Shown here one piece after another: positions 2,095 through 48,000 of a DNA stretch of 64,000 nucleotides; the first letter of the stretch is position 1, and each line of letters begins with the position of its first letter. A program made the position numbers and the translations under genes. Under the pieces are notes generated by a model. The model made no database searches, was not told the origin of the DNA, and saw only the letters and a program-made list of their open reading frames with translations. The stretch lies in NCBI GenBank assembly GCA_947561395.2, contig OX387192.1, positions 12,560,221 through 12,624,220 on the forward strand. Direction: 5' to 3'. Source of the stretch: Buxus sempervirens. Taxonomy: Eukaryota; Streptophyta; Magnoliopsida; Buxales; Buxaceae.

Positions 2095-2673
2095 GATATT
2101 ATATTGAGTTGTTACATGAGTTTTGATATATTGTTGAGATTGTATAATGATTATCCACTTCTTTTTGTCAAGCATGAAAGTATGTTATTTTTAATATGAT
2201 AAAATGTTTATACATGCGTGTGCTACTTATTGGATATTCGTATCATATTCTTCATTTTTGTTTTGTTTTGTTTTTAGCTGATCCACGTGAGGACATTGTT
2301 GGGGTTGATCCATCAAGAGATATTCAAGATTTTTTAGCAGAGGATTATTATTATCCAGATTAGTTTACTTGGATTGTTTGAGGTTATTATAGTTGTTACT
2401 TTTGATGGACATTTTGTTTGTAATTTATTATGAGATTGATAAAGTTAGTTTTACCTTTGTACTAGACATGAATTATATTATTTTGATGGTTTGACATTTT
2501 TGATAGCCACTAAATGATTATGAATTTATTAAATGAAATTTTATTTCCGCACTCTGATATTAAACGAGATTGATATATTATCATTGTCTGGTTTTAGGTT
2601 CTTTGGGCCCATAGTAGCCCTTCGGATACGGGCTTGGTGTAATGTGGCATAGACCTGGATTCAAGGTGTTATA
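2095..2673 (+). mobile_element. LTR fragment D1 (3' part of a 5' LTR)
   Basis: It is homologous to the 3' part of LTR D3 (40070-40599) and to D2 (22825-23038). It ends GGTGTTATA (expected TTACA, one C to T change), directly before the PBS at 2678. It carries the splice-acceptor-like TTTTTAG at 2271-2277 followed by the conserved micro-exon. Confidence 0.8.
2278..2363 (+). other. Conserved LTR micro-exon, D1 copy
   Basis: After TTTTTAG the frame (sharing the G of AG) starts Ala-Asp-Pro-Arg-Glu and ends Glu-Asp-Tyr-Tyr-Tyr-Pro-Asp with TAG at 2361-2363. It has the same phase, start and end as the copies in A1, A2, A3, B3, C2 and D3, although its middle has diverged. Confidence 0.55.
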
Positions 2674-3479: not shown

Positions 3480-3703
3480 TGTAAAACCCCGAATTTCCCT
3501 TAAATAATAAATTAAATTAGTAAATAATATTACCCAGAGTTATGATTGATAGAAACATTTAAATATTGTAGGGGGTGATCAACTTAGCGGAGATCCAGAA
3601 TTAGACGCAGATCTGACCGTCCGATCATGAGATATCAAGGTATGTATTCTGATTGGGCGTGTGTATGGAATTTGGTATAGGTGAGACACATGGGATAAGT
3701 GAG

Positions 3704-3711
3704 TATAAGTA
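3704..3711 (+). promoter_or_regulatory. TATA-like box of LTR A1
   Basis: TATAAGTA lies about 200 bp before the conserved donor. A TATA box lies at the same relative place in A2, A3, the B copies, C2, F, G, T and O LTRs. Confidence 0.5.
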
Positions 3712-3910
3712 TTAGTTTAATAACCTAAATTTATACGCGTGTATTCTCGCTTGTATTGATCAGCCGCAAGCGACAAGCGACCGAAGGAGAAGAAGAAGAA
3801 GGGGAAGAAGAAAAGCTTGGGTTTTTGGAGTTCTTCATCTTCAAGAGTGTTGCTGGGTGATAGAGAAGCGTGGTTGAGAGAAGAGAGGAAGAGGAACCTT
3901 CGTTCAAGAG

Positions 3911-5372
3911 GTAGGTGACACCGTTTTGGTTTTAAATTCGGATTTATCTCTGTTTAATCGCAAACGCATGTTTCTATGACATGTAAAGTTGTATTTAGTT
4001 AGCTAAGCATGTTATAAATACATTAGAATGAGTTTAGACGAGAAAAATCGTGATTTAGAACTGTTTCTGCTCGATTTGGTGAGACCGCCGACCTCGACTG
4101 TGCGAGGCGCTCATCGGCGATCTTAGGCGCTGGTTAAAGTTTTGAGGACGCCGTGGACCGCGGGACGACGGACCGTGGGCGCTCGAAATTGCAGTACCGC
4201 CGACTGATGACCGCCCGGAGCGATCCTGAGCGATCCCAGGCGCTCTCAGCAGAATTTCCAATTTTTCATAATTTCGAACCTAAATCAATTCTAAACCATT
4301 TTTAGACAATTTTAATGATTAATTAAGGTACTTTAAGACCAAAATAAACTACCTAAATCCCTGTTTTACAGAAAAACAAATTAGGGAGATATTTAGGACA
4401 TTAGTTGCCAAGTTTTGAAGGTATATGAGAAATGTGATTTTGGAAAAGCCTAACTACCCTTTGATTATCTAAACACTTCTAAATGACATTATAAATCATA
4501 AGACATTATAAAGAGAATTCAGAATCCGAATGACGGAATAATGAAGTGAATGTACAGATATAACCATTATATGCCGCTAGGCACCAACCCTTATAGAAAT
4601 ATGATACTTTAGGGAATTTTGGAGTCTAGTGGGCATAGCTGGTTATGGATCCATAGTCGTAGCTAGATAGCTGAGGGATATGTCATTTGGGTTGAGTTAC
4701 TCCTATATGCGACGCGCTTCCTTTGCAAGTCAGTTTGTCTGGGAATGTCCTATGTCTGGAGGGACACCCCGGTGAGCTGCTGGTGATTCCCTGTACATGT
4801 GGATAAGCAACCACCTCCATGTATTGATTCTGGTGCTGCATGCTGGTGGTACATGCCAACTTTGATGGGTACGTGTGCAATAAGTCGGTGACTACGGCTC
4901 TTGTCTAAGCTGCGCTGCATGGGGCTTGAGTATCATTAGTAGCATCGCTCCTAAGTCGCACGGTGGTATAGCAATTGGTTGAGAATCATCTCAAAAGGTT
5001 TATCTTACTTTGTGAGTCCTACAATGACACTGAAAACATAACACTTGATATGATTACTATTGTGCACGTGCGGGATGCATGTGATTGGGATATTGGTTGG
5101 ATGTGACTGCTTAGTACATCCTGGCAATGCTTGGATTATGCTATTGATTTGGCTATTGAGTTCTTATATTAAAACTTGCTAAAAATCATTTCTAGAACTG
5201 TTATTAAACTGTTTTGTGTTCATGAATGGTATAAATGATTATGCGAGCCTGATTTATCGATGTTGCTTAATCGTGCATGAAATGCTACTTTGCTTATATT
5301 AACTGTTTAATCATGCATGTGTTACCTACTGAGATATTCGTATCTCACCCTACTTCTATTCCATTTTTTCAG
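3911..5372 (+). other. Predicted intron inside LTR A1
   Basis: Donor AAGAG|GTAGGTGACACC at 3911; acceptor CCATTTTTTCAG ending at 5372. Both ends are kept at matching places in A2 (43025-44484) and in other LTR families. Pyrimidine-tract length differs between A1 and A2 while the sequence after AG is conserved, which fits an intron better than a continuous frame. No transcript evidence is available here. Confidence 0.5.
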
Positions 5373-5461
5373 CTGATACGCGAGAGGGGGATCTCTTAGA
5401 CTTCCAGGGAGAGATAGCCGAGTATTCGCCGGAGGATTATTATTATCCAGACCTTGTCTGA
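5373..5461 (+). other. Conserved LTR micro-exon, A1 copy
   Basis: About 29 codons, from Ala-Asp-Thr-Arg-Glu to Glu-Asp-Tyr-Tyr-Tyr-Pro-Asp-Leu-Val and TGA (5459-5461). Against the A2 copy there are seven base differences: GCC/GCT, TCG/TCT, CCG/CCA, TAT/TAC, CCA/CCC and GAC/GAT, all silent, and GTC/ATC (Val/Ile). The peptide is strongly acidic and ends in a tyrosine triplet. I know of no named domain for it. Confidence 0.6.
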
Positions 5462-5838
5462 GGTGGATTGATGTTATAGACTTAGCATTTTTAATTGGTT
5501 ATTATCATTTATTGGATTTGATGTATGAGAGAGACAAGAGAGAGTTAGTAACCAGTTCATTCTACCGGACTTTGATACTATTGACTGATGGTCAAGCTTT
5601 ATGCTTGTTTGAGGATTTTGATCTACACTTCCGCACATACTTGTTTCCGCACTCTGATAGTTTAATATATGGATTGGATTTACTTTCTTTGGTCTGGTAT
5701 GTTATTGATGTTGTAATTGATATGGGCCAGTAACACCTCGGATTTGGTTGTTGAACTAAATTCGGGTTGTTACAGTAGAGAACCGGGTTCGGGTCGGGTG
5801 CCGGTTTGCACTGACCCGGGTTCGGGGCGTTACAGAGA

Positions 5839-5894: not shown

Positions 5895-5958
5895 GTGAGT
5901 ACGCTAGATAGAACCCCTAGAATTATTGGATTCTAACAAGTGAAATTGTATTTTGCAG
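5895..5958 (+). other. Possible 64-nt leader intron ending at the gag ATG
   Basis: Donor ATT|GTGAGT at 5895, branch-like TTCTAAC at about 5932, and TTTTGCAG ending at 5958 directly against the gag ATG. Element A2 has the same layout (45010-45074), and the decayed D-family gag also has TTTTCAG abutting its ATG. It is at the lower size limit for plant introns, so uncertain. Confidence 0.3.
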
Positions 5959-6228
5959 ATGGCTGGTAGGGGAAGACGTGCTAGAGTTGATCCTATTGAG
6001 GAGGAGCAGCAGGATGTTCCACTACCTCCACCACCTCCAGGGGGTGATATATGGACTGTTGTTGGCACATTGGCAGAGCTTCTTGCCAAGGAGAGAGAGG
6101 AGAGACTGAGCCAGCATGGCAATGGCGGGAATGGTGGCAATGGTCACGGAGAAGAGCCTATACATGAGCAGGCCATACATACGGCCAAGGATCTTGAGCA
6201 ATTCAGGAAATTGGATCCACCAGTCTTT
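5959..6228 (+). pseudogene. gag N-terminus of element A1, truncated
   Basis: It encodes about 90 residues from MAGRGRRARVDP through the proline run and the Gly/Asn-rich linker to FRKLDPPVF, closely matching the first 90 residues of the A2 gag (45075). After about 6228 the sequence changes to the leader of the Tat/Ogre-like element. The retrotransposon gag core, zinc knuckle and all of pol are missing. The ATG was chosen by homology with A2 and because it directly follows TTTTGCAG. It cannot make a functional capsid protein. Confidence 0.85.
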
Positions 6229-13263: not shown

Positions 13264-13361
13264 TCAACCTCCAATCAAGTCAGGATAATAATAATCCTCC
13301 GGTGAAAAATCAGCAAGCTCACTCTGATAATCCCCACTAGGATCCCCCTCTCGCGTATCAG
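13264..13361 (-). other. Conserved LTR micro-exon, A3 copy
   Basis: Reads on the minus strand after TTTTTCAG: Ala-Asp-Thr-Arg-Glu, an acidic middle, then Ser-Pro-Glu-Asp-Tyr-Tyr-Tyr-Pro-Asp and TGA at 13266-13264. The frame is open although the middle differs from A1/A2 by in-frame changes. Confidence 0.6.
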
Positions 13362-25451: not shown

Positions 25452-27523
25452 AATTCATTCTTAGGGCATGTTATTTCTGGAGAGGGTATTGCAGTAGACC
25501 CAGCTAAGGTTCGAGCCGTGACTGACTGGCCTAGACCTACTACGGTGACAGAGGAGCATAGTTTCTTGGGTATGGCTGGTTACTACAGGAGATTTATTGA
25601 TAATTTCTCCAGAATAGCCACTCCTTTATTGAATCTAGCCAAGAAAGCTGTTAAATTTAGTTGGGATGATTGTTGTGAGCAGAGTTTCCAAGAGCTAAAG
25701 GGTAGATTAACTGAGGCTCCGGTATTGATAGTACCTTCAGTGAATGAAGGTTTCTTTGTTTATTGTGATGCGTCTCGTGTTGGGTTAGGCTGTGTATTGA
25801 TGCAACAAAGACGAGTAGTGGCTTATGCATCTCGGTCGTTGCGTCCTCATGAGAGGAACCACCCCACTCATGACTTGGAGTTAGCTACTATAGTGTTCAC
25901 ACTTAAGATATGGCGGCATTACTTATACGGGGTACAGTTTGAGATTTACTCTGATCATAAAAGTTTGAGATATATCTTCTTATAGAGGAATCTTAATATG
26001 AGGTAGAGGAGGTGGATGGATCTTCTGAAGGATTATAATTTCACACTTCAGTATCATCCATGCAAGGCAAATGTAGTTGCAGATGCCTTGAGTCATAGAG
26101 GTGCTTCAGAGGATCAGATAACTACATTGGCTACATTCATGGTCAGTTAGTGCAATTTGGTGGATACCATTAAAGATTGGCCTGGTGAGTTTTCTACAAA
26201 TGGTGATGGTTGGATTCTAGCCCGAGTGCATGTAGAGCCGGACTTGATCCAGCGTATTCGGAAGAAATAGTTATCAGATTCAGATTTGAGGCACACCAGA
26301 GAGTTAGTGGAGAGAGTTGATGAGACTGTCAAAGATTTTGATTTCAGGGATGGTTTATTGAGATTTAGAGGTAGGATATGTGTGCCAGATGATGCAGAGA
26401 TTCGTAGAGTGATACTTTAGGAGGGTCACAGGTCCAGATATGCAGTTCATCCCGGTAGTACAAAGATCTACAGGAATCGTAAGTCTATTTATTGGTGGTC
26501 AGAAATGAAGAAAGAGATAGCTGAATATGGATCTAGATGCCTTGTTTGTCAGCAAGTCAAAGCAGAACATCGTAGGCCTCCAGGATTGCTACATCCCTTG
26601 CCCATTCCTGAGTGGAAATGGGGACATATTACTATGAATTTTGTATCTAGTTTGCCAGTTACGACGAAGAAGCATGATGCTATATGGGTGATTGTTCTTT
26701 GGTTGACAAAATCAACCCATTTCTTGCCTATCTGTACTACACAGACTTTGGATTCACTAGGGGAGTTGTATATTCAAGAGATTGTACGCTTACATGGAGT
26801 TTCAGTTTCTATCGTATCAGATAGAGATTCACGATTTACATCTTAGTTCTGTAAGGGTTTTCAAGAGGCCATGGGTACTCAGTTGTGTTTTAGCACCAAT
26901 TATCACCCACAGACAGATGAGCAGTCTGAGAGGATCATACAGACATTGGAGGATATGTTGTGATGCTGTGTACTAGATTGGGGTGGTAGTTGGAGTAGCC
27001 ATTTGCATTTGGTGGATTTTGCTTACAATAACAGCTATCAGGCTAGTATATAGATGGCACCATTTGAGGCATTGTATGGCCGAGCTTGTAGATCACCTTT
27101 TTGTTGGGAGGAGGTTGGCAAGAAGCAGTATTTAGGGCCACATATTGTGCAGGACAGCGTTGAGAAGGTGAGTTTGATCAGACAATGTCTCTTGATTGCA
27201 CAGAGCCATCAGAAAAGTTATGCAGATAATAGGCGGCGTGAATTGAAGTTTGAAGTTGGAGATCAGGTGTTTGTAAAGATTTCGCCTTCTAAGGGTGTTA
27301 TGAGATTTGGCAAGAAGGGAAAGCTATCACCGAGATTCATTGGTCCTTTCGAGATAGTGAAGGAGGTGAGTCCTATGGCGTATCGTCTAGCATTGCCTAC
27401 ACAGTTGAGTGGAGTACATGATGTATTTCACATTGCCATGCTACGACGATATATTCTAGACCCGAGTCATGTGATTGATTTTGAGCCATTGACGATTCGG
27501 GAGGATTTCTCTTATGAGGAAAG
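25452..27523 (+). pseudogene. Tekay/Del-like chromovirus pol: RT end, RNase H, integrase
   Basis: It starts inside RT at [11 protein letters not shown]. Then: the RT thumb ([19 protein letters not shown]), RNase H with [20 protein letters not shown] and SDHKSLRY, the HHCC zinc finger (RYAVHPG ... CLVCQQ), the integrase core (HDAIWVIV, VSDRDSRF, ERIIQTLEDML) and the GPF module with KGKLSPRFIGPFEI. The first integrase aspartate is changed to Asn (MNF where the family has MDF, codon 26637). Stops at RNase H and integrase sites sit where relatives have Gln or Arg. RT fingers/palm, gag and 5' LTR are missing. The frame breaks at 27523, where solo LTR B3 is inserted, and resumes at 29664. Confidence 0.92.
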
Positions 27524-27774
27524 TGTAACTCCCCGGATCCGTGTTGTTCAATAAAAGTATAACACGTCCCACAGAGTATTAGGTAAGGATCTAACACTGA
27601 TGTGATCACTGGAAAATCACCTCATTTATACCATATCAGATTATACAACCAAAAATTTACTAAGAAATCCAAAAATAATCTTTAATTAAAATCAAACGAT
27701 TCCACATCAACTACTTTATTACATTTCCCAAAATCAAATGAGTCAAAGTTCCAATCTAAAATAAACCTACTAGT

Positions 27775-27851
27775 CTATGGATTGTAGTAATAGTCTTCCT
27801 CCCTATATGTGTCAGTCGGATCTATCCCAGTAGGCGCCTCACCACGAGTAT
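27775..27851 (-). other. Conserved LTR micro-exon, B3 copy
   Basis: Minus strand after TTTTTAG: Asp-Thr-Arg-Gly-Glu, an acidic middle, Glu-Glu-Asp-Tyr-Tyr-Tyr-Asn-Pro, TAG at 27777-27775. It shows that the motif reaches into the B family, although B1 and B2 have lost it. Confidence 0.55.
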
Positions 27852-28127
27852 CTAAAAACAAAACGAAAAAAAACGGAATAAGATACGAATATCTCAGCGA
27901 GTAGCATATGCATGCAAAAATAGTTATCAACAGTTATAAACATGCCTCGATAAATAACCAACACCAATACATCAATAGAAATACTTACAAAATGGAAATC
28001 CAGAATTCTAATAATAGTTCCCATCAAAGATCAACCTCGGTACCGATAAATCAACGGAAGGTCAATGTCATGCATATTGCTTAAATTGGTTAATTCACAT
28101 GCCCATGAGACAATCCACACCTCCATG

Positions 28128-28270
28128 TACACAGTTCTGGCCTACTCAAGGTTTCGGACACTCTGAAATGACGGCCTACTTAGGGTTTCGTCATCCAATG
28201 CCGGCCTACTCCGGGTATCGGCATTGACAACCAGGCCTACTCAGGGTATCTGGCTGTTCTACACCGGTTG
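28128..28270. repeat. Constant-loop hairpin array in LTR B3
   Basis: Four hairpins; the fourth has the stem CCAG/CTGG with loop GCCTACTCAGGGTAT, better paired than in B1 and B2. Confidence 0.85.
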
Positions 28271-29663
28271 TGGCAACACACAAGGCCATGCAATTACACC
28301 AACAAACAATACCATCACATTACGAAGCTTAGACATGGATCCAGGACAAACTAAACCAAAACAAAAAAACCATCGCATAAATCTCAACACTGACATCACA
28401 TTAAACCAAACATTTCCATCATCATGTATAAAGCCACATAACCTCATCACAGGTCCCTCCAGACCAGAACAAAAATTCATGTAAACTCAGTAATTATTCT
28501 AATCCCAAAACACAAGTCCACTGGTAAAATAACTCTTTTTTCTACTTGCACAAAGATAATTTGACACATACGGCTCAGCACTTGAAATCGCGCAAACCCA
28601 GATTAAACGAGTTCATAAACTAGAAACAAATGTAAAACATAATTTAAAACTAAGTCATTAACTCATGGCATTTGGAACAGTAAGTTACCCCAACAGTTTC
28701 CCCAAACTTGCCTTGTAGAACCCACAATTCATGTAACTATATCTACGAAGGTTTTGAGTAACTTAAAATACCTCTAGCATCCTAATCTAGGGTTTGGCAA
28801 GAGATTTAATCCCTAAAGTATCAAAAATATGCTTAACATGATCAGCTGCAACTCACTGTAGTATTTGGTGGGTGCGCTGACCTCGGCGCAGTTGGCGACA
28901 GGTTGGCGGATCCAACCAATCGCTCATGCCGAGCTGCCTCTGAGTGAAAAATAGGTTGGCGGATCCAACAGGTTGCTTGCGCCAAGCTGCCGTTGAGTGT
29001 AAGGAGGTTGGCGGCAGCTCAGCGGATACCCCTTACGCAACCCGACTCTCTGTTAACTCCAAAACTCTATGACTGTCCCATTTTCTCACCTCTGTAACGA
29101 CTTTCCTATACTTCTACCATCTTCAAAAGACTATTAGACACGATTTGAAATTAATCTACCAATATGTATTTTTTGCCTCTAAAATTATTCCAAAAACCAT
29201 GTGCGAAACAATATTTTCCGAAATCATTCACTACGGCTAAACACAATATACAAAACCCAAAACATCAGATCAAAACGATGCTACTCACAGTTATACGCTC
29301 CAAAACCTTGCAATTGCAACTCCTATAACAGCAAGTCCAATAGTCAATCTCCACCCAGTTTTCCTTCTGTTCGCAAGAGGTTTTTTTTTCTAAACCCCTG
29401 ATTTTGAACACTCTGATCAGTAGGAACCACACGTCGGCTTCTTTCCAAAACCCTAGAACTCCAGCCGAAATCTCCTTCAACTCAAGGTATGTGAAACCTA
29501 CGAATCTAAATACATTAAGTATTTATACTTACCCTATATACTTTTCCGCTCGACAAATTTTAAAACCCATGATTCAGTGCACGCTCACCTACCAAGTTTT
29601 CCCTACATACACAGCTTATTAATTCTCATAAACAATAATCATGTAGAAAATTGGGGTCTTACA

Positions 29664-29824
29664 GAGAAGCCGGTTCAGATTTTGGACCGACGTGATCAAG
29701 TTCTAAAGACCAAGGTGATACCTTTGGTAAAAGTTCTATGGCAAAATCACACAACCGAGGAGCCACTTGGGAAAGAGAGGATGAGGTGAAGAAGAAGTAC
29801 CTGAATTTGTTTATCGCATCATGA
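29664..29824 (+). pseudogene. Chromovirus Pol C-terminus (after LTR B3)
   Basis: It continues the Pol broken at 27523: KPVQILDRRDQVLKTKVIPL, VKVLWQNH, then a one-base frame change within the EEATWERED-type stretch and a stop at 29822-29824. This is the chromodomain-like tail that follows the GPF/Y module in Tekay/Del elements. It would target integration complexes to chromatin in an active element. Here it is split from the rest of integrase by 2.1 kb of foreign LTR. It is followed by the polypurine tract and the 3' LTR, which confirms that this is the natural end of the internal region. Confidence 0.9.
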
Positions 29825-29851
29825 GGTAAATTTTGAGGATGAAATTTATTT

Positions 29852-32377: not shown

Positions 32378-32460
32378 ATCTTGGTAAGGACAATACTTTG
32401 CGGGTAAACACTGTCGACGATTATCCAGAGTATAGTGAGGAGGACTACTACATGGAGTAG
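32378..32460 (+). other. Conserved LTR micro-exon, C2 copy (diverged)
   Basis: Same phase after TTTTCAG; starts Asp-Leu-Gly-Lys-Asp and ends Ser-Glu-Glu-Asp-Tyr-Tyr-Met-Glu, TAG at 32458-32460. The acidic-tyrosine end is kept with Met for the third Tyr. Confidence 0.5.
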
Positions 32461-36449: not shown

Positions 36450-37120
36450 TTCATACCATTGAAAAGAGGATTCCGACACAGTTCTAACGAACACTGAGTT
36501 TACTCAAATCGGAGTCTGGATGAAGAAGTTATGGACCAGTCAAATCTGAGAAAAGCATAAATCGGCTTTCTGCAAAACCCCAGATCAGCTGTCCAAATTA
36601 GTCTCAGTAGAAAGATCACTTCGACATGATTCTAATGCAACCAAGTTTGCTGGAATCGGGGTCCCAGATAAGAAGTTATAAGCAAAACTAACTCCCGGGG
36701 AGCAATTTTGCCTTTTTGCTAAAAGCTGAATCAACTACTCAATTTTATCCTAGCGGATAGAGATTTCTGACACGATTCCAACGCAACTGAGTTTTCTGGA
36801 ATCGAAGTCCAAATGAAGGATTTATGGGCAGAACAAGTCCTGGGGGAGCATAAATTGATTTTTTGCTCAAACCTCAGTTAACTGCCATTTCTATCCCAAA
36901 ATAAAGGAAATGCCGATACGATTCCGATGCAATTGATTTTGTTGGAATTGGGGCCCAAATCAAGGAGATATGAGCATATTAAGATTCCAGACGCGACTTC
37001 GCGCTTCTGCTAAAAACCTGAATTTGCTGCTCGACCCTATCTCAGTGGATAGAGGATGTCGACCCGATTCCAACGCAATTGAGTTTGCCAGAATCGGAGC
37101 TCAAATGAGAAAGTTATAAG
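36450..37120 (+). repeat. Degenerate U3 tandem repeats in LTR O2
   Basis: About five units of roughly 120-150 bp, each with words like GACACGATTCCAACGCAA, GGAATCGGGGTCC and AAGTTATAAGC. O1 has two units of the same repeat. Confidence 0.75.
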
Positions 37121-37145
37121 TAGCCCTAGGTCAAAAATAAACTGT

Positions 37146-37170
37146 CCATGTGGCAAACTGCGCCACATGG
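37146..37170. repeat. Perfect 9-bp-arm hairpin in LTR O2
   Basis: CCATGTGGC and GCCACATGG around a 7-nt loop, about 215 bp upstream of the TATA box. Confidence 0.85.
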
Positions 37171-37182
37171 ATGTCACCCTTT

Positions 37183-37378
37183 CTTAACCCTTAAGTAAAC
37201 AAAAATTAGAATAAAAAAAGGTCTTTCTTAACCCCTAAGTAAAAAATAATAACAAAAGAATCATTCTTAACCATTAAGTAAAAAATAATAATAGAAAATT
37301 TATAAGTAAAAAATATTAATAAAAGAGTCATTCTTGATAAAGATAATTAAAAAAATGGTCTTTTTTAGCCATTAAGCA
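37183..37378 (+). repeat. AT-rich tandem repeat before the O2 TATA box
   Basis: Four to five irregular units of TTCTTAACCATTAAGTAAAA type plus AATAATA. Confidence 0.7.
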
Positions 37379-37430
37379 ACCTCCCCTATAAAAGGGGTGG
37401 GGGAGGGATGCTCCAACCCAAGCAAGCAAG

Positions 37431-37720
37431 GAAGAGAAAAAGAAGCTCCTTTGGGCTTGGCCATTCTTGCTTTGCCCTCTCTCCTCCCTCTGTCCAAAAC
37501 TTTCTTCTTCCCCTCTTTAACCCCTCTAAAACTCCTCCATGCCCTATCCAAGTGCATCAAAACCCTTCCCTTCTTGAAGAGAAAAAGAAGCTCCTTTGGG
37601 CTTGGCCATTCTTGCTCTGCCCTCTCTCCTCCCTCTATCCAAAACTTTCTTCTTCCCCTCTTTAACCACTCTAAGACTCCTCCATGCCCTATCCAAGTGC
37701 ATCAAAACCCTTCCCTTCTT
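37431..37720 (+). repeat. 145-bp tandem duplication in the O2 leader
   Basis: Units 37431-37575 and 37576-37720 both start GAAGAGAAAAAGAAGCTCCT and differ at only a few bases. They lie between the TATA box and the donor. O1 lacks the second unit as far as I can see. Confidence 0.9.
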
Positions 37721-40210: not shown

Positions 40211-40296
40211 CTGATCTTCGTGAGGGAGACTTGGGGGTTGGTTCTAAGGGAGAGTTCGCTGACTTTCATCCGGAAGATTATTATTATCCTGAGTAG
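40211..40296 (+). other. Conserved LTR micro-exon, D3 copy
   Basis: Ala-Asp-Leu-Arg-Glu-Gly-Asp start, His-Pro-Glu-Asp-Tyr-Tyr-Tyr-Pro-Glu end, TAG at 40294-40296. The frame is intact although the AG acceptor before it is not. Confidence 0.55.
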
Positions 40297-42597: not shown

Positions 42598-43024
42598 TGT
42601 AAAACCCCGAATTTTACTTAAATAATAAATTAAATTAGTAAATAATATTACTGAGGGTTATGATCGATGGGAATATTTTATTCTTGTAGGGGGTGATCAG
42701 TTTAGTGAAGATCCAGAATTAGACGCAGATCTGACCGTCCGATCTTGAGATATCGAGGTACGTATTTTAATTGGGCGAGGTGTATGGGAGAGTTTGCATG
42801 GGAGATGCATGGGATCAGGGAGTATATATATGCATTAAAATAACCTAATCGTATTCTCGCTCGTATTATTCAGCCGCAAACGACGAGAGTTGAAACGACC
42901 GAGAAGAGAAGAAAGAGAAGGAAGGGGGAAGACCAAGGGGACTTGCTCAGAGCCTTGCCTTGCAACTGAGGAGAGGTTTGGGGGTTTGCTGTTCAGAAGA
43001 GAAGAGGAGAAACGCGTATACGAG

Positions 43025-44484
43025 GTAGGTGACACCGTTTTGGTTTTGAAATTGGATTTTTCCTTGGTTAATCGCAAATGCATGTTTCTATGATATGTAA
43101 TGTTGTATTTAGTTAGCTAAGCATGTTAGAAATACACTAGAATGAGTTTAGACGAGAAAAATCGTGATTTAGAACTATTTCGGCTCGATTTTGCATGACC
43201 GCCGACCTCGACTGTGCTCGGCGCTCGTCGGCGATCCTCGGCGCTGGTTGAATAAAATTAGGGCGCCGTAGACCGCGAGAAGACGGACCGCGGGCGCTCG
43301 AAAATACACGACCGCTGACCTGGGACCGCCAGGGCGATCCTGAGCGATCCTAGGCGCTCTCAACAGAATTTCCAATTTTTCCTAATTTCGAACCTAATTC
43401 AATTCTAAACTATTTTTAGACAATTTTAATGATTAATTAAGGTGCTTTAAGACCAAAATAAACTACCTAAACCCCTGTTTTACAGAAAAACAAATTAGGG
43501 AGATATTTAGGACAATAGTGCCAAGTTTTGAAGGTAAATGAGAAACGTGATTTTGGAAAAGCCTAACTATCATTTGACTATCTAAATACCTCTAAATGAC
43601 ATTATAAATCAGAATACTTTCTAAAGAGAATACTGAATTCAGATGAATAAATATTGAAGTAAATGTACAGATATAACCATTATATGCCGCTAGGCACCAA
43701 CCCTTATAGAATATGACACTTTAGGGAAGTTTTGGAGTCTAGTGGGCATAGCTGGTTGTGGATCCATAGTCGTAGCTAGATAGCTGAGGGATATGTCATT
43801 TGAGTTGAGTTACTCCTATATGCGACGCGCTTCCTTTGCAAGTTAGTTTGTCTGGGAAGGTCCTATGTCTGGAGGGACACCCCGGTGAGCCGCTGGTGAT
43901 TCCCTGTACATGTGGATAAGCAACCACCTCCATGTATTGATTCTGGTGCTGCATGCTGGTGGTACATGCCAACTTTGATGGGTACGTGTGCAATAAGTCG
44001 GTGACTACGGCTCTTGTCTAAGCTGCGCTGCATGGGGCTTGAGTATCATTAGTAGCATCGCTCCTAAGTCGCACGGTGGTATAGCAATTGGTTGAGAATC
44101 ATCTCAAAAGGTTTATCTAACTTTGTGAGTCCTACAATGACCCTGAAATCATAAAACTTGTTATTATTGTGGTACGTGCGGGAGGCATGTGTTTGGGATA
44201 TTGGTTGGATGTGACTGTTTAGTACATCCTGGCAATGTATGAATTATGTTACTGATTTGACTATGGTATTTTCATATTAAACTTGCTGGAATTCATCTCT
44301 AGAACTGTTTAGTATATTGTTTTGTATTTACGAATGATACGAATGATTATACGAGCCTGATTAATCGATGTGACTTATTCGTGCATGAACTGCTACTTTC
44401 CGTATATTAACTGTTTAATCATGCATGTGTTACCTACTGGGATATTCGTATCTCACCCTACTGTTATTCCATTTTTTTTTTCAG
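43025..44484 (+). other. Predicted intron inside LTR A2
   Basis: 1,460 bp with GTAGGT donor and a ten-T pyrimidine tract ending CAG. The boundaries coincide with those of A1. The leader exon before it contains no ATG that I can find in either A1 or A2. Confidence 0.5.
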
Positions 44485-44573
44485 CTGATACGCGAGAGGG
44501 GGATCTCTTAGACTTCCAGGGAGAGATAGCTGAGTATTCTCCAGAGGATTACTATTATCCCGATCTTATCTGA
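44485..44573 (+). other. Conserved LTR micro-exon, A2 copy
   Basis: Starts Ala-Asp-Thr-Arg-Glu-Gly-Asp and ends Glu-Asp-Tyr-Tyr-Tyr-Pro-Asp-Leu-Ile, TGA 44571-44573. Differs from A1 at seven bases, six of them silent third positions. Confidence 0.6.
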
Positions 44574-44951
44574 GGTGGATTGATGTTATAGACTTAGCAT
44601 TTTAATTGGTTTATTATCATTAATTGGATTTGATGTACTTTGAGAGACAAGAGAGAGTTAGTAACCAATTCATACTACCAGACTTTGATACTATTGATTG
44701 ATGGTCAAGCTTCATGCTTGTTTGATGATTTTAATCTACACTTCCGCACATACTTGTTTCCGCAACTCTGATGGATTATATATGGATAGGATTTACTTTC
44801 TTTGGTCTGGTATGTTATTGATGTTGTGATTGATATGGGCCAGTAACACCTCGGATTTGGTTGTTGAACTAAATTCGGGTTGTTACAGTAGCGAACCGGG
44901 TTCGGGTCAGGTGCCGGTTTGGACTGATCCGGGTTCGGGGCGTTACAGAGA

Positions 44952-44963
44952 TGGTATCAGAGA
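44952..44963 (+). other. Primer binding site of element A2
   Basis: TGGTATCAGAGA; the last base differs from the standard TGGTATCAGAGC. Confidence 0.88.
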
Positions 44964-45074
44964 AATGGTCCTAACCTTAGAATTAGCCAAACTTTAGGGG
45001 AATGGGATTGTGAGTACGCTAGATAGAACCCCTAGAATTATTGGATTCTAACAAGTGGAATTGAATTTTTGCAG

Positions 45075-48000
45075 ATGGCTGGCAGGGGACGACGTGCTAG
45101 AGTTGATCCTATTGAGGAGGAGCCGCAGGATGTTCCATTACCTCCACCACCTCCAGGGGGTGATATATGGACTGTTGTTAGCAGCCTGGCGGAGCTTCTT
45201 GCCAAGGAGAGAGAGGAGAGGCTGAGCCAGCAGGGAAATGGCGGAAATGGTGGCAATGGTCATGGAGAGGAGCCTGTACACGAGAGGGCCATACATACGG
45301 CCAAGGATCTCGAGCAGTTCAGGAAGTTGGATCCACCTATCTTTAGTGGACGACCAGATCCTATGGAGGCTGAGAGATGGCTGATGCGAGTCGAGTGGAT
45401 TTTTGAGGCCATGGGATGCCCGATGGACAGGAGAGTGCGATTGGCAGCATTCTTGTTTGAGGGAGAGGCAGTGCATTGGTGGACAGCCAGGAAGAGGTAG
45501 GATCCACAGGCTACGTACATGACTTGGGATAGATTCAGAGAGGTCTTCTATGACCAGTACTTTTCTGAGGAAGTCCGGCTCAAGAAGGAGCGGGAATTTA
45601 TGGAGATTACACAGGGAGGCCAGACAGTGGCTCAGTACGAGGCTAGATTTGCAGCCTTGTCTCGATTTGCACCTCACATGACACAGGATGAGCGGAGGCT
45701 GACTTCACATTTTGAGCGGGGTCTGAAGCCTGAGATTAGGAGTATGCTGACCGTACTCCTGTGCACCGAATTGAAGGACGTGGTACGTAGAGCCACTAGA
45801 GCTGAGAGTGACTTGGAGGCTAGAGCGAGTCAGAGCAGAGCTAGGCCGCCTACGAGGCCGGCAGATCAGAGAGGTTTCCTTAGTGGGAACAAGAGACCCA
45901 GAGACTGGTCTAGGGCAGAGCCTGCGGGAGGACAGTATAGAGCAGCTCCGAGGGCATGTGGCAGTTGTGGCAGATACCATGTACCTGGACCGTGTGTTGC
46001 AGCGCCAGGCACCTGCTACCGATGCGGTAGGCCGGGTCACAGGATCACGGATTGTCGGTTTCCTACTAGTTATCAGCCGTTAGCAGTGCCACGACCGGCA
46101 TTACCATCGCCAGAGACCGCGCCTGCTTTTCCACAGAGGTCACAGTTTCAGCAGCCAGCTCAGAGAGCACCGGTTGGACAGAAGCCCCAGGGCAGAGGAT
46201 CAGTTCAGAGAGGAGGCCAGAGGCAGACAGTACCTGCTCAGCAGCAGCCAGCGAGGGTATATGCAGTGGATACACATGAGGAGCGTGAGCCCGATCGTGT
46301 GGAGGATATTGAGGGTGATCCCGAGACACCTGAGTTGATTGGAGGTATTCTCTTCATCTGTGGTAGATCAGCATGTGTTCTGTTTGATTCTGGTGCTTCC
46401 CATTCTTTTATATTGCCTGCTTGTGCACAACGGATTGGTTTGTCACCCACTGAATTGGATGCTGTTTTGTCTGTGCACACACCTTTGGGAGAGTCTACTT
46501 GAGTGGAGCATATGTATAGAGACTGTATGATTAGATTGGGTAGATTAGAGTTGTCTGGTGATTTGATTGCCTTAGACATTGGAGGTTTTGATGTGATATT
46601 GGGGATGGATTGGCTATGTAGACACCATGTGACATTGGACTGTTATGCGAGTACAGTGATAGTTAGAGGGCCAGATCAGACCACTCATTGTTTCAAATGT
46701 GAGGGGTTGAAGTCTCGGATTGGTCTGGTAGCATCTGTGATAGCAGAGGAGCTTAGGAGTGACACCCTTGTCATCTCCGATGTACCTGTTGTACAGGAGT
46801 TTGCGGATGTGTTTCCAGAGGATTTACCTGGATTACCACCTGCTAGAGGAGTAGAGTTCAGGATACAGTTGATGCCTGGTACGGCTCCAGTTTCGAAACC
46901 ACCCTATAGGCTTGCGAAACCAGAACAGGAGGAACTTAAGAAACAGTTAGATGAGCTCCAGGAAAAAGGTTTCATCAGACCGAGTATGTCTCCGTGGGGC
47001 GCTCCAGTTCTATTTGTCCAGAAGAAGGATGGTAGCATGAGGATGTGTATCGATTATAGGCAACTGAATCAAGTAACAGTGAAGAACAAGTATCCGTTGC
47101 CTAGGATTGATGACCTGTTTGACCAGTTAGGAGGAGCATCTTGGTTCTCCAAGATAGACTTGAGGTCAGGATATCATCAGGTGAGAGTAGCAGAGGAGGA
47201 CATAGAGAAGACAGCTTTTCGTACACGCTATGGGCATTATGAGTTCTTGGTTATGCCTTTTGGGTTGACCAATGCCCCAGCTGTTTTCATGGACCTCATG
47301 AACAGAATTTTTCATGCATACTTGGACAGTTTCGTAGTGGTGTTCATTGATGACATCCTAGTATATTCTAAGACCCGAGAAGCACATGTAGGGCATTTGA
47401 AGGCAGTATTGCACACTTTGAGAGACCACGGGTTGTATGGGAAATTTAGCAAATGCCAGTTTTGGCTAAGGCAAATTTCTTTCTTAGGTCATGTTATCTC
47501 AGGAGAGGGTATATCTGTGGACCCTGAGAAGGTTAAGGCAGTGGCAGAATGGCCTAGGCTTACTACAGTGACAGAGGTCAGGAGTTTCCTTGGTATGGCA
47601 GGTTACTATAGGAGATTCATTGCAGGATTTTCGCGTATAGCTGCACCGTTATCTAATCTAACCAAGAAAGCAGTGAAGTTTCAATGGGATGAAAAATGTG
47701 AGCAGAGTTTTCAGGAATTGAAGCAGAGATTGACTACTGCACCAGTGTTGATTGTGCCATCCATGGATGAGGCATTTGCAGTATATTGTGATGCTTCTAG
47801 GATAGGCTTGGGATGTGTATTGATGCAGCAGGGCAGAGTTATAGCGTATGCTTCGAGATTGTTGAGGCCACATGAGAAGAACTACCCTACCCACGATTTG
47901 GAGCTTGCAGCCATAGTCTTTGCATTGAAGCTATGGAGGCATTACCTTTATGGAGTAGAGTTTGAGATCTTTTCTGATCATAAGAGCTTGAGATATCTGT

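Follow-up and report, generated by a model that had tools for sequence, protein, structure and literature searches.

A probable coding exon, conserved at the protein level, in the long terminal repeats of a Buxus sempervirens Ty3/gypsy retrotransposon

A short stretch inside LTR A2 of the window (the whole stretch of 64,000 nucleotides of Buxus sempervirens DNA that was analysed) is very probably a real coding exon, carried in the long terminal repeats (LTRs) of a Ty3/gypsy element and conserved there as a coding stretch, and by splicing its peptide may be attached as an additional tail to one of the element's own proteins. Position, frame, stop codon and acceptor are as the original prediction had described them (Table 1). 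Following TTTTTTTTTTCAG the exon reads (G)CT GAT ACG CGA GAG ... CTT ATC TGA, and the G at 44484 that makes the “Ala” codon belongs to the splice-site AG; if the site is used, the first codon base must come from an upstream exon (phase 1). The exon contains no ATG, and every copy with an intact AG has its acceptor in phase 1; the exon therefore needs an upstream partner whose coding part ends in phase 1. The peptide is acidic and usually ends in EDYYYPD followed by the stop. It had been proposed that this is a micro-exon under protein-level selection, and the selection is borne out by dN/dS and by its restriction to one frame, while its being a spliced exon is what the splice-site sequences suggest.

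Table 1 Features in the window (a slash within a sequence marks a putative splice point).
Feature	Position	Strand	Remarks
Coding exon in LTR A2	44485..44573	+	(x)CT GAT ACG ... ATC TGA = (A)DTREGDLLDFQGEIAEYSPEDYYYPDLI, stop
Pyrimidine tract and acceptor AG	44468..44484	+	AG intact in 25/29 diverse loci L010-L038 (manual count)
LTR A2 (TGTAAAACCCC...GGGGCGTTACA), 5' LTR, gag follows	42598..44947	+	boundaries and primer binding site by sequence
TATA-box-like TATATATATGC ahead of putative LTR exon 1	42823..42833	+	predicted from sequence
Candidate 5' splice site of the LTR leader, ACGAG/GTAGGTGACACC	43020..43036	+	GT at 43025
Near-invariant block inside predicted LTR intron	43698..44097	+	6 differences/399 aligned bases, A1 vs A2
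Conserved GATATTCGTATCTCACCC ahead of acceptor, possible hairpin or branch-site region	44441..44458	+	in diverse copies, often with small changes
Primer binding site TGGTATCAGAG	44951..44961	+	
Acceptor-like TTTTTGCAG/ATGGCTGG adjoining gag ATG (45075)	45066..45082	+	also in A1 at 5951-5966
Exon in LTR A1 (LTR 3480-5834)	5373..5461	+	
Exon, family C	13273..13361	-	frame two codons longer before stop
Exon, family D	40211..40296	+	acceptor AG disturbed
Exon, family E	2278..2363	+	
Exon, family F (DLGKDNTLRV...EYSEEDYYME, stop)	32378..32460	+	in 3' LTR of element with pol 25455-27521 and 29664-29812
Exon, family G (DTRGEAPTGIDPTDTYREEDYYYNP, stop)	27775..27851	-	LTR inserted in pol of F element
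F-element pol-end donor TCATGAG/GTAAATTT	29819..29833	+	in-frame TGA just before donor

The exons of LTRs A2 and A1 differ at seven bases, of which, as predicted, six are silent third positions and one gives Ile/Val, the latter being a first-position change (ATC/GTC) in the last codon. For quantification, the same number of substitutions was placed at random by script with a transition to transversion ratio of 1:1. The single amino-acid change between A2 and A1 compares with 5.1 expected for seven random substitutions (P = 0.001), and by the same random placement A2 and C show 7 changes instead of an expected 13.3 (P 0.00035), A2 and D 10 instead of 15.7 (P 0.00065), and G and L071, a copy reached by following one element downstream, 2 changes in 7 substitutions where 5.0 are expected (P 0.012). 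Read in the shifted frames, the same differences amount to 6/5 (A2-A1), 14/12 (A2-C), 17/16 (A2-D) and 5/5 (G-L071) changes, and it is clear that the deficit of amino-acid changes is confined to this frame.

The dN/dS ratios, computed for 12 pairs according to Nei-Gojobori, point in the same direction. The A2-A1 pair gives 0, the A-C pairs 0.10-0.16, A2-D 0.12 and C-D 0.22, pairs with E range between 0.26 and 0.42, and three pairs involving the diverse loci (L016-L031, L028-D and L013-L019) between 0.15 and 0.38; the pair L028-L034 stands at 0.78. Between A1 and A2 the divergence of the complete exon (7/89) is no lower than that of the LTR (194/2302), and only the distribution of the changes over the codons is unusual, not the overall divergence. 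The pairs between families A, C and D are not near 1 (0.10-0.22). Between A1 and A2 there are 0 indels in the exon, whereas the LTR alignment has 46 gap openings.

The peptide is also found behind a U-rich tract and an AG in the far more diverged window LTRs C, D, E, F and G and at many further sites of the genome, with the acceptor in phase 1 in families A, C, E, F and G and in L071, and with a T-run before the AG whose length varies between copies. In window LTRs H and I the acceptor is present, with no recognisable peptide behind it. The family G copy is a lone LTR inside the F-element pol (window 27520-29665, minus strand). Genome-wide probing gave first-look candidates that are loose counts and not copy numbers: 917 for the E exon peptide (150 scored, 18 of these with an internal stop by manual count), 3217 for a blended peptide probe (150 scored) and 2168 for the A2 DNA (40 scored). 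Word-based protein searches, a method that requires shared exact words and limits length, returned no match for the 29-residue peptide, and a search of viral contigs found nothing.

How the copies were found matters for an explanation in which no protein is made, the stretch being a functional element of the RNA or DNA (a splice site, an enhancer or a 3' end signal) and the codon pattern a product of chance or of choosing hits by protein similarity. Family E and loci L009-L038 were indeed picked by similarity at the protein level, a criterion that favours conserved residues, strongly conserved non-coding motifs lie in both flanks, and the high ratio of the L028-L034 pair fits such a reading. 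However, A, C and D match by DNA too, and these families and L071, which was simply followed from one element, are still constrained specifically in this frame; families F and G were recognised from weak matches to the peptide together with position. Length changes in the exon alignment are, moreover, whole codons, and we regard the purely non-coding explanation as quite improbable. That a host gene exon was captured once by an LTR and has been carried along since is suggested by our own reading of the layout, which resembles an ordinary plant terminal exon, but the constraint lasts across diverged families and the element therefore seems to need the exon; we regard such a capture as very improbable.

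The genome around the window is rich in Ty3/gypsy elements. The pol piece of L039 shows the Pfam families RVP_2, RVT_1, RT_RNaseH and Integrase_H2C2 in order, with rve next, below its curated cut-off. The PR-RT-RH-INT order together with flanking LTRs and a primer binding site identifies a Ty3/gypsy LTR retrotransposon, which may be a chromovirus of the Tekay/Del clade. The mark of that clade is a type II chromodomain at the integrase end; PF00385 is not among the Pfam families listed for L039, and some close plant relatives carry it. The pol frame of family A does not continue through the 3' LTR in the manner that defines CRM group A: it enters the LTR for seven codons only and then meets a TAA, and the exon lies about 1.9 kb further on. 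A short hairpin whose loop is of the NGGA type lies directly ahead of the polypurine tract in this genome's elements as well as in plant-like elements of other sources (L039:2548-2567 on the minus strand, window 29828-29847, L070, L061, L072, L073, L075 and L076), with 97.1% of cells paired over 8 sequences and 2/5 pairs changed on both sides. L072-L076 are contigs filed under Acidobacteriota, Streptomyces, Mycobacterium and Labilibacter that encode a plant-like Ty3/gypsy integrase and are probably contamination.

Several paired copies of LTR A2, about 7.15 kb apart, occur elsewhere. From 5' to 3' the LTR holds the TATA-like box, some 170 nt poor in AUG, the leader donor, the stretch with the near-invariant block, CATGCATG..GATATTCGTATC, the pyrimidine tract and the exon, and after the exon a short U-rich stretch with a TTGAGGTTATTAT-like sequence. 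Such a layout would be expected if the LTR held an intron and, after it, a terminal exon with a short 3' UTR, with transcription starts and poly(A) sites at positions predicted from the sequence. The TTGAGGTTATTAT-like motif soon after the exon stop (window 44574-44600, and in diverse loci) perhaps takes part in 3' end formation. The first part of the near-invariant block is matched in up to 19/37 other stretches, and the position of the block would suit a packaging signal found only in unspliced RNA. The primer binding site at 44951 is presumably of the Met-tRNA type. A pyrimidine tract and CAG lie directly at the gag ATG, so that the AUG-poor LTR exon 1 could splice straight to gag. Tandem repeats of about 145-146 bp elsewhere in the window (36575-37720) are satellite-like.

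Three other ways of reading the stretch were tried and rejected. The donor of a mid-LTR exon with its own ATG (MPTLMG/GTACGT) is not kept in L034. An unspliced reading frame from the ATG in CATGCATG is in frame in A2, but the different T-run of A1 puts it out of frame there. For a cassette exon with a donor AG/GT after the stop, AGGT is present in 23/29 diverse loci (manual count), and the next bases are unfit as a donor.

The best explanation, to which we give somewhat less than an even chance, is that the retrotransposon's own pol message ends with this stretch as its 3'-terminal coding exon. Given the exon, its frame, the selection on it and the splice-site sequences with their phase, all of them observed, the pre-mRNA would be spliced from a donor just behind the chromodomain-like integrase end (CCACAAG/GTAAAT in family A, phase 1), across some 1.9 kb containing the polypurine tract, U3 and most of R of the 3' LTR (1926 nt in L039 by manual arithmetic), and would land at the acceptor TTTCAG/CTGATACG in the 3' LTR with the predicted junction CACAAG/CTGATACG. 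Integrase would gain an acidic, tyrosine-rich tail, ADTREGDLLDF...EDYYYPDLI and stop, in place of its unspliced end GKFRGRNFSFRRGG..., and the tail would serve integrase, for example in tethering or targeting. With pol as the partner, the only reason for the exon standing in both LTRs would be that the LTRs are copied from each other.

The pol of family A ends in ...YPNLFPEPQG/GTAAATTTCGAGGACG..., and in all 11 family A elements fetched with both ends, near-identical copies that represent one family, the donor is in phase 1 and the frame stays open into the exon. A pol-end donor in the same phase is also found in the F element and in L070, whose LTRs both carry the exon (of the G type in L070). 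In both of these an in-frame TGA stands directly before the donor. Exact matches to the HDH motif HDHGGTAAATTTCGAGGACGAAATTT number 434 genome-wide, with TGA in 226 and CGA in 4, and among the matches listed (the first 100 of the 434) CAA is likewise common, and TAA and CTA are also present. The proportion of TGA to CGA argues that the TGA is not mere decay and that it is old in some families, where adding the exon to pol would call for read-through or another partner, or else fails. L061 is without a GGTAA donor, and among five plant-like elements from other sources only L073 has a pol ending in a strong donor (GAG/GTAAGT), in phase 0 and not 1; L072, L074, L075 and L076 showed no such pol-end donor. 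A scan of these five for the exon motif showed none, and only L076 reaches 3.5 kb downstream.

The family A pol-end donor scores 4.5 with a plant matrix, which makes it the second-best phase-1 site of the pol piece, and both the leader donor of family A (6.0) and a phase-1 site in the RNase H region (5.2) score higher. The latter bears on the possibility that the exon completes, by splicing from another donor in gag or pol, an accessory or truncated protein; the CERV protein of Cer1, in which gag exons are joined to a 3' exon (PMC10309623, in the sections available), is a precedent for it. The phase stays constant although in some families a TGA closes the pol-end donor, and there are phase-1 donor-like sites elsewhere in gag-pol, but the best of these, the RNase H site (YHPG/GTAAGG), is not among the donor-like sites of F, and we consider another gag or pol partner possible, if doubtful.

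The leader donor suggests yet another role for the acceptor, namely in an intron of the 5' leader. LTR exon 1, from the TATA-like box to AG/GTRRGT, would be joined to the exon within the 5' LTR (junction GTATACGAG/CTGATACG), which would remove an LTR block that could mark genomic RNA, and the peptide would be a small leader ORF with a non-AUG start. Among the 10 LTRs compared, the donor is recognised in five (A, A1, C, L059 and L066), and also in L070, but it is damaged in G and not recognised in F, L061, L063 and L067. Exon 1 is poor in AUG, with 3 ATG in 6 x 170 nt against a Markov mean of 8.9 (P 0.02); however, none of the six leaders has an AUG in frame and open to the phase-1 junction, and in L070 a TAA closes the frame immediately ahead of the junction, while in L059 it is closed a little further upstream. 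A leader intron would also account for splicing and not for the selection on the protein, and altogether it seems to us rather unlikely. A genome search for the family A leader and pol-end junctions without their introns gave 0 matches, which speaks against both routes, and no intron-lacking junction occurred among the 72 retrieved sequences, nor did the word-based protein search find a spliced protein. With the phase 0 donor of L073 on one side and the leader donor missing in four LTRs on the other, splicing from pol and splicing from the leader are weakened alike.

Protein coding behind pol or in an LTR has been described in other elements. Soybean SIRE1 has an in-frame coding stretch behind the pol stop that is expressed by stop-codon suppression, a precedent for the read-through that families with TGA before the donor would need, but it is a copia element in which the stretch is unspliced and forms an env-like ORF. 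MMTV sag and HIV nef are encoded in or into the 3' LTR and expressed from spliced RNA, but these are animal retroviruses with long ORFs that have their own start.

According to the sections of the cited papers available, the CRM group A chromoviruses are a precedent for the proposed pol tail, in that a continuous frame places their integrase end (CR motif) inside the 3' LTR (PMC3059260). The proposed likeness is a C-terminal part of integrase encoded inside the 3' LTR; there pol runs on unbroken, whereas here the LTR stretch can be reached from pol by splicing only. Ogre (Tat) is likewise a plant Ty3/gypsy element and uses partial splicing to express pol, but its intron lies between gag-pro and RT-RH-INT and not in the LTR (PMC6317226). 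The Cer1 CERV protein of C. elegans is similarly finished by a separate 3' exon behind TTTCAG, but this fifth exon lies between pol and the 3' LTR and encodes half of a protein of 517 residues (PMC10309623). Splicing of plant elements is known from Bagy2 (PMC7264820) and has been seen by direct RNA sequencing in sunflower elements (PMC7730604), and Tekay elements of some groups have extra 5' ORFs (PMC11728184). No description of a coding exon in a Tekay-type LTR was found in the open-licence full-text literature, in the sections available. An LTR that encodes protein is in itself already known, and the new part would be the proposed route, splicing.

In its fullest form, which we consider unlikely, the explanation by a pol exon would mean that a chromovirus has moved an integrase tail into its LTR, to be reached by splicing. 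One pol gene would then give two integrase ends, a basic one read through the polypurine region from genomic RNA and an acidic EDYYYPD tail from a spliced mRNA that cannot be replicated, and the tail would be a dedicated contact to chromatin or a host factor that separates translated from packaged RNA. If this is true, plant LTRs are not only regulatory, and a large group of plant retrotransposons hides a conserved coding exon that ordinary domain annotation has overlooked. Splicing across the 3' LTR would separate mRNA from genomic RNA, and the exon would offer a testable handle on both the insertion sites of the element and the rationing of its proteins.
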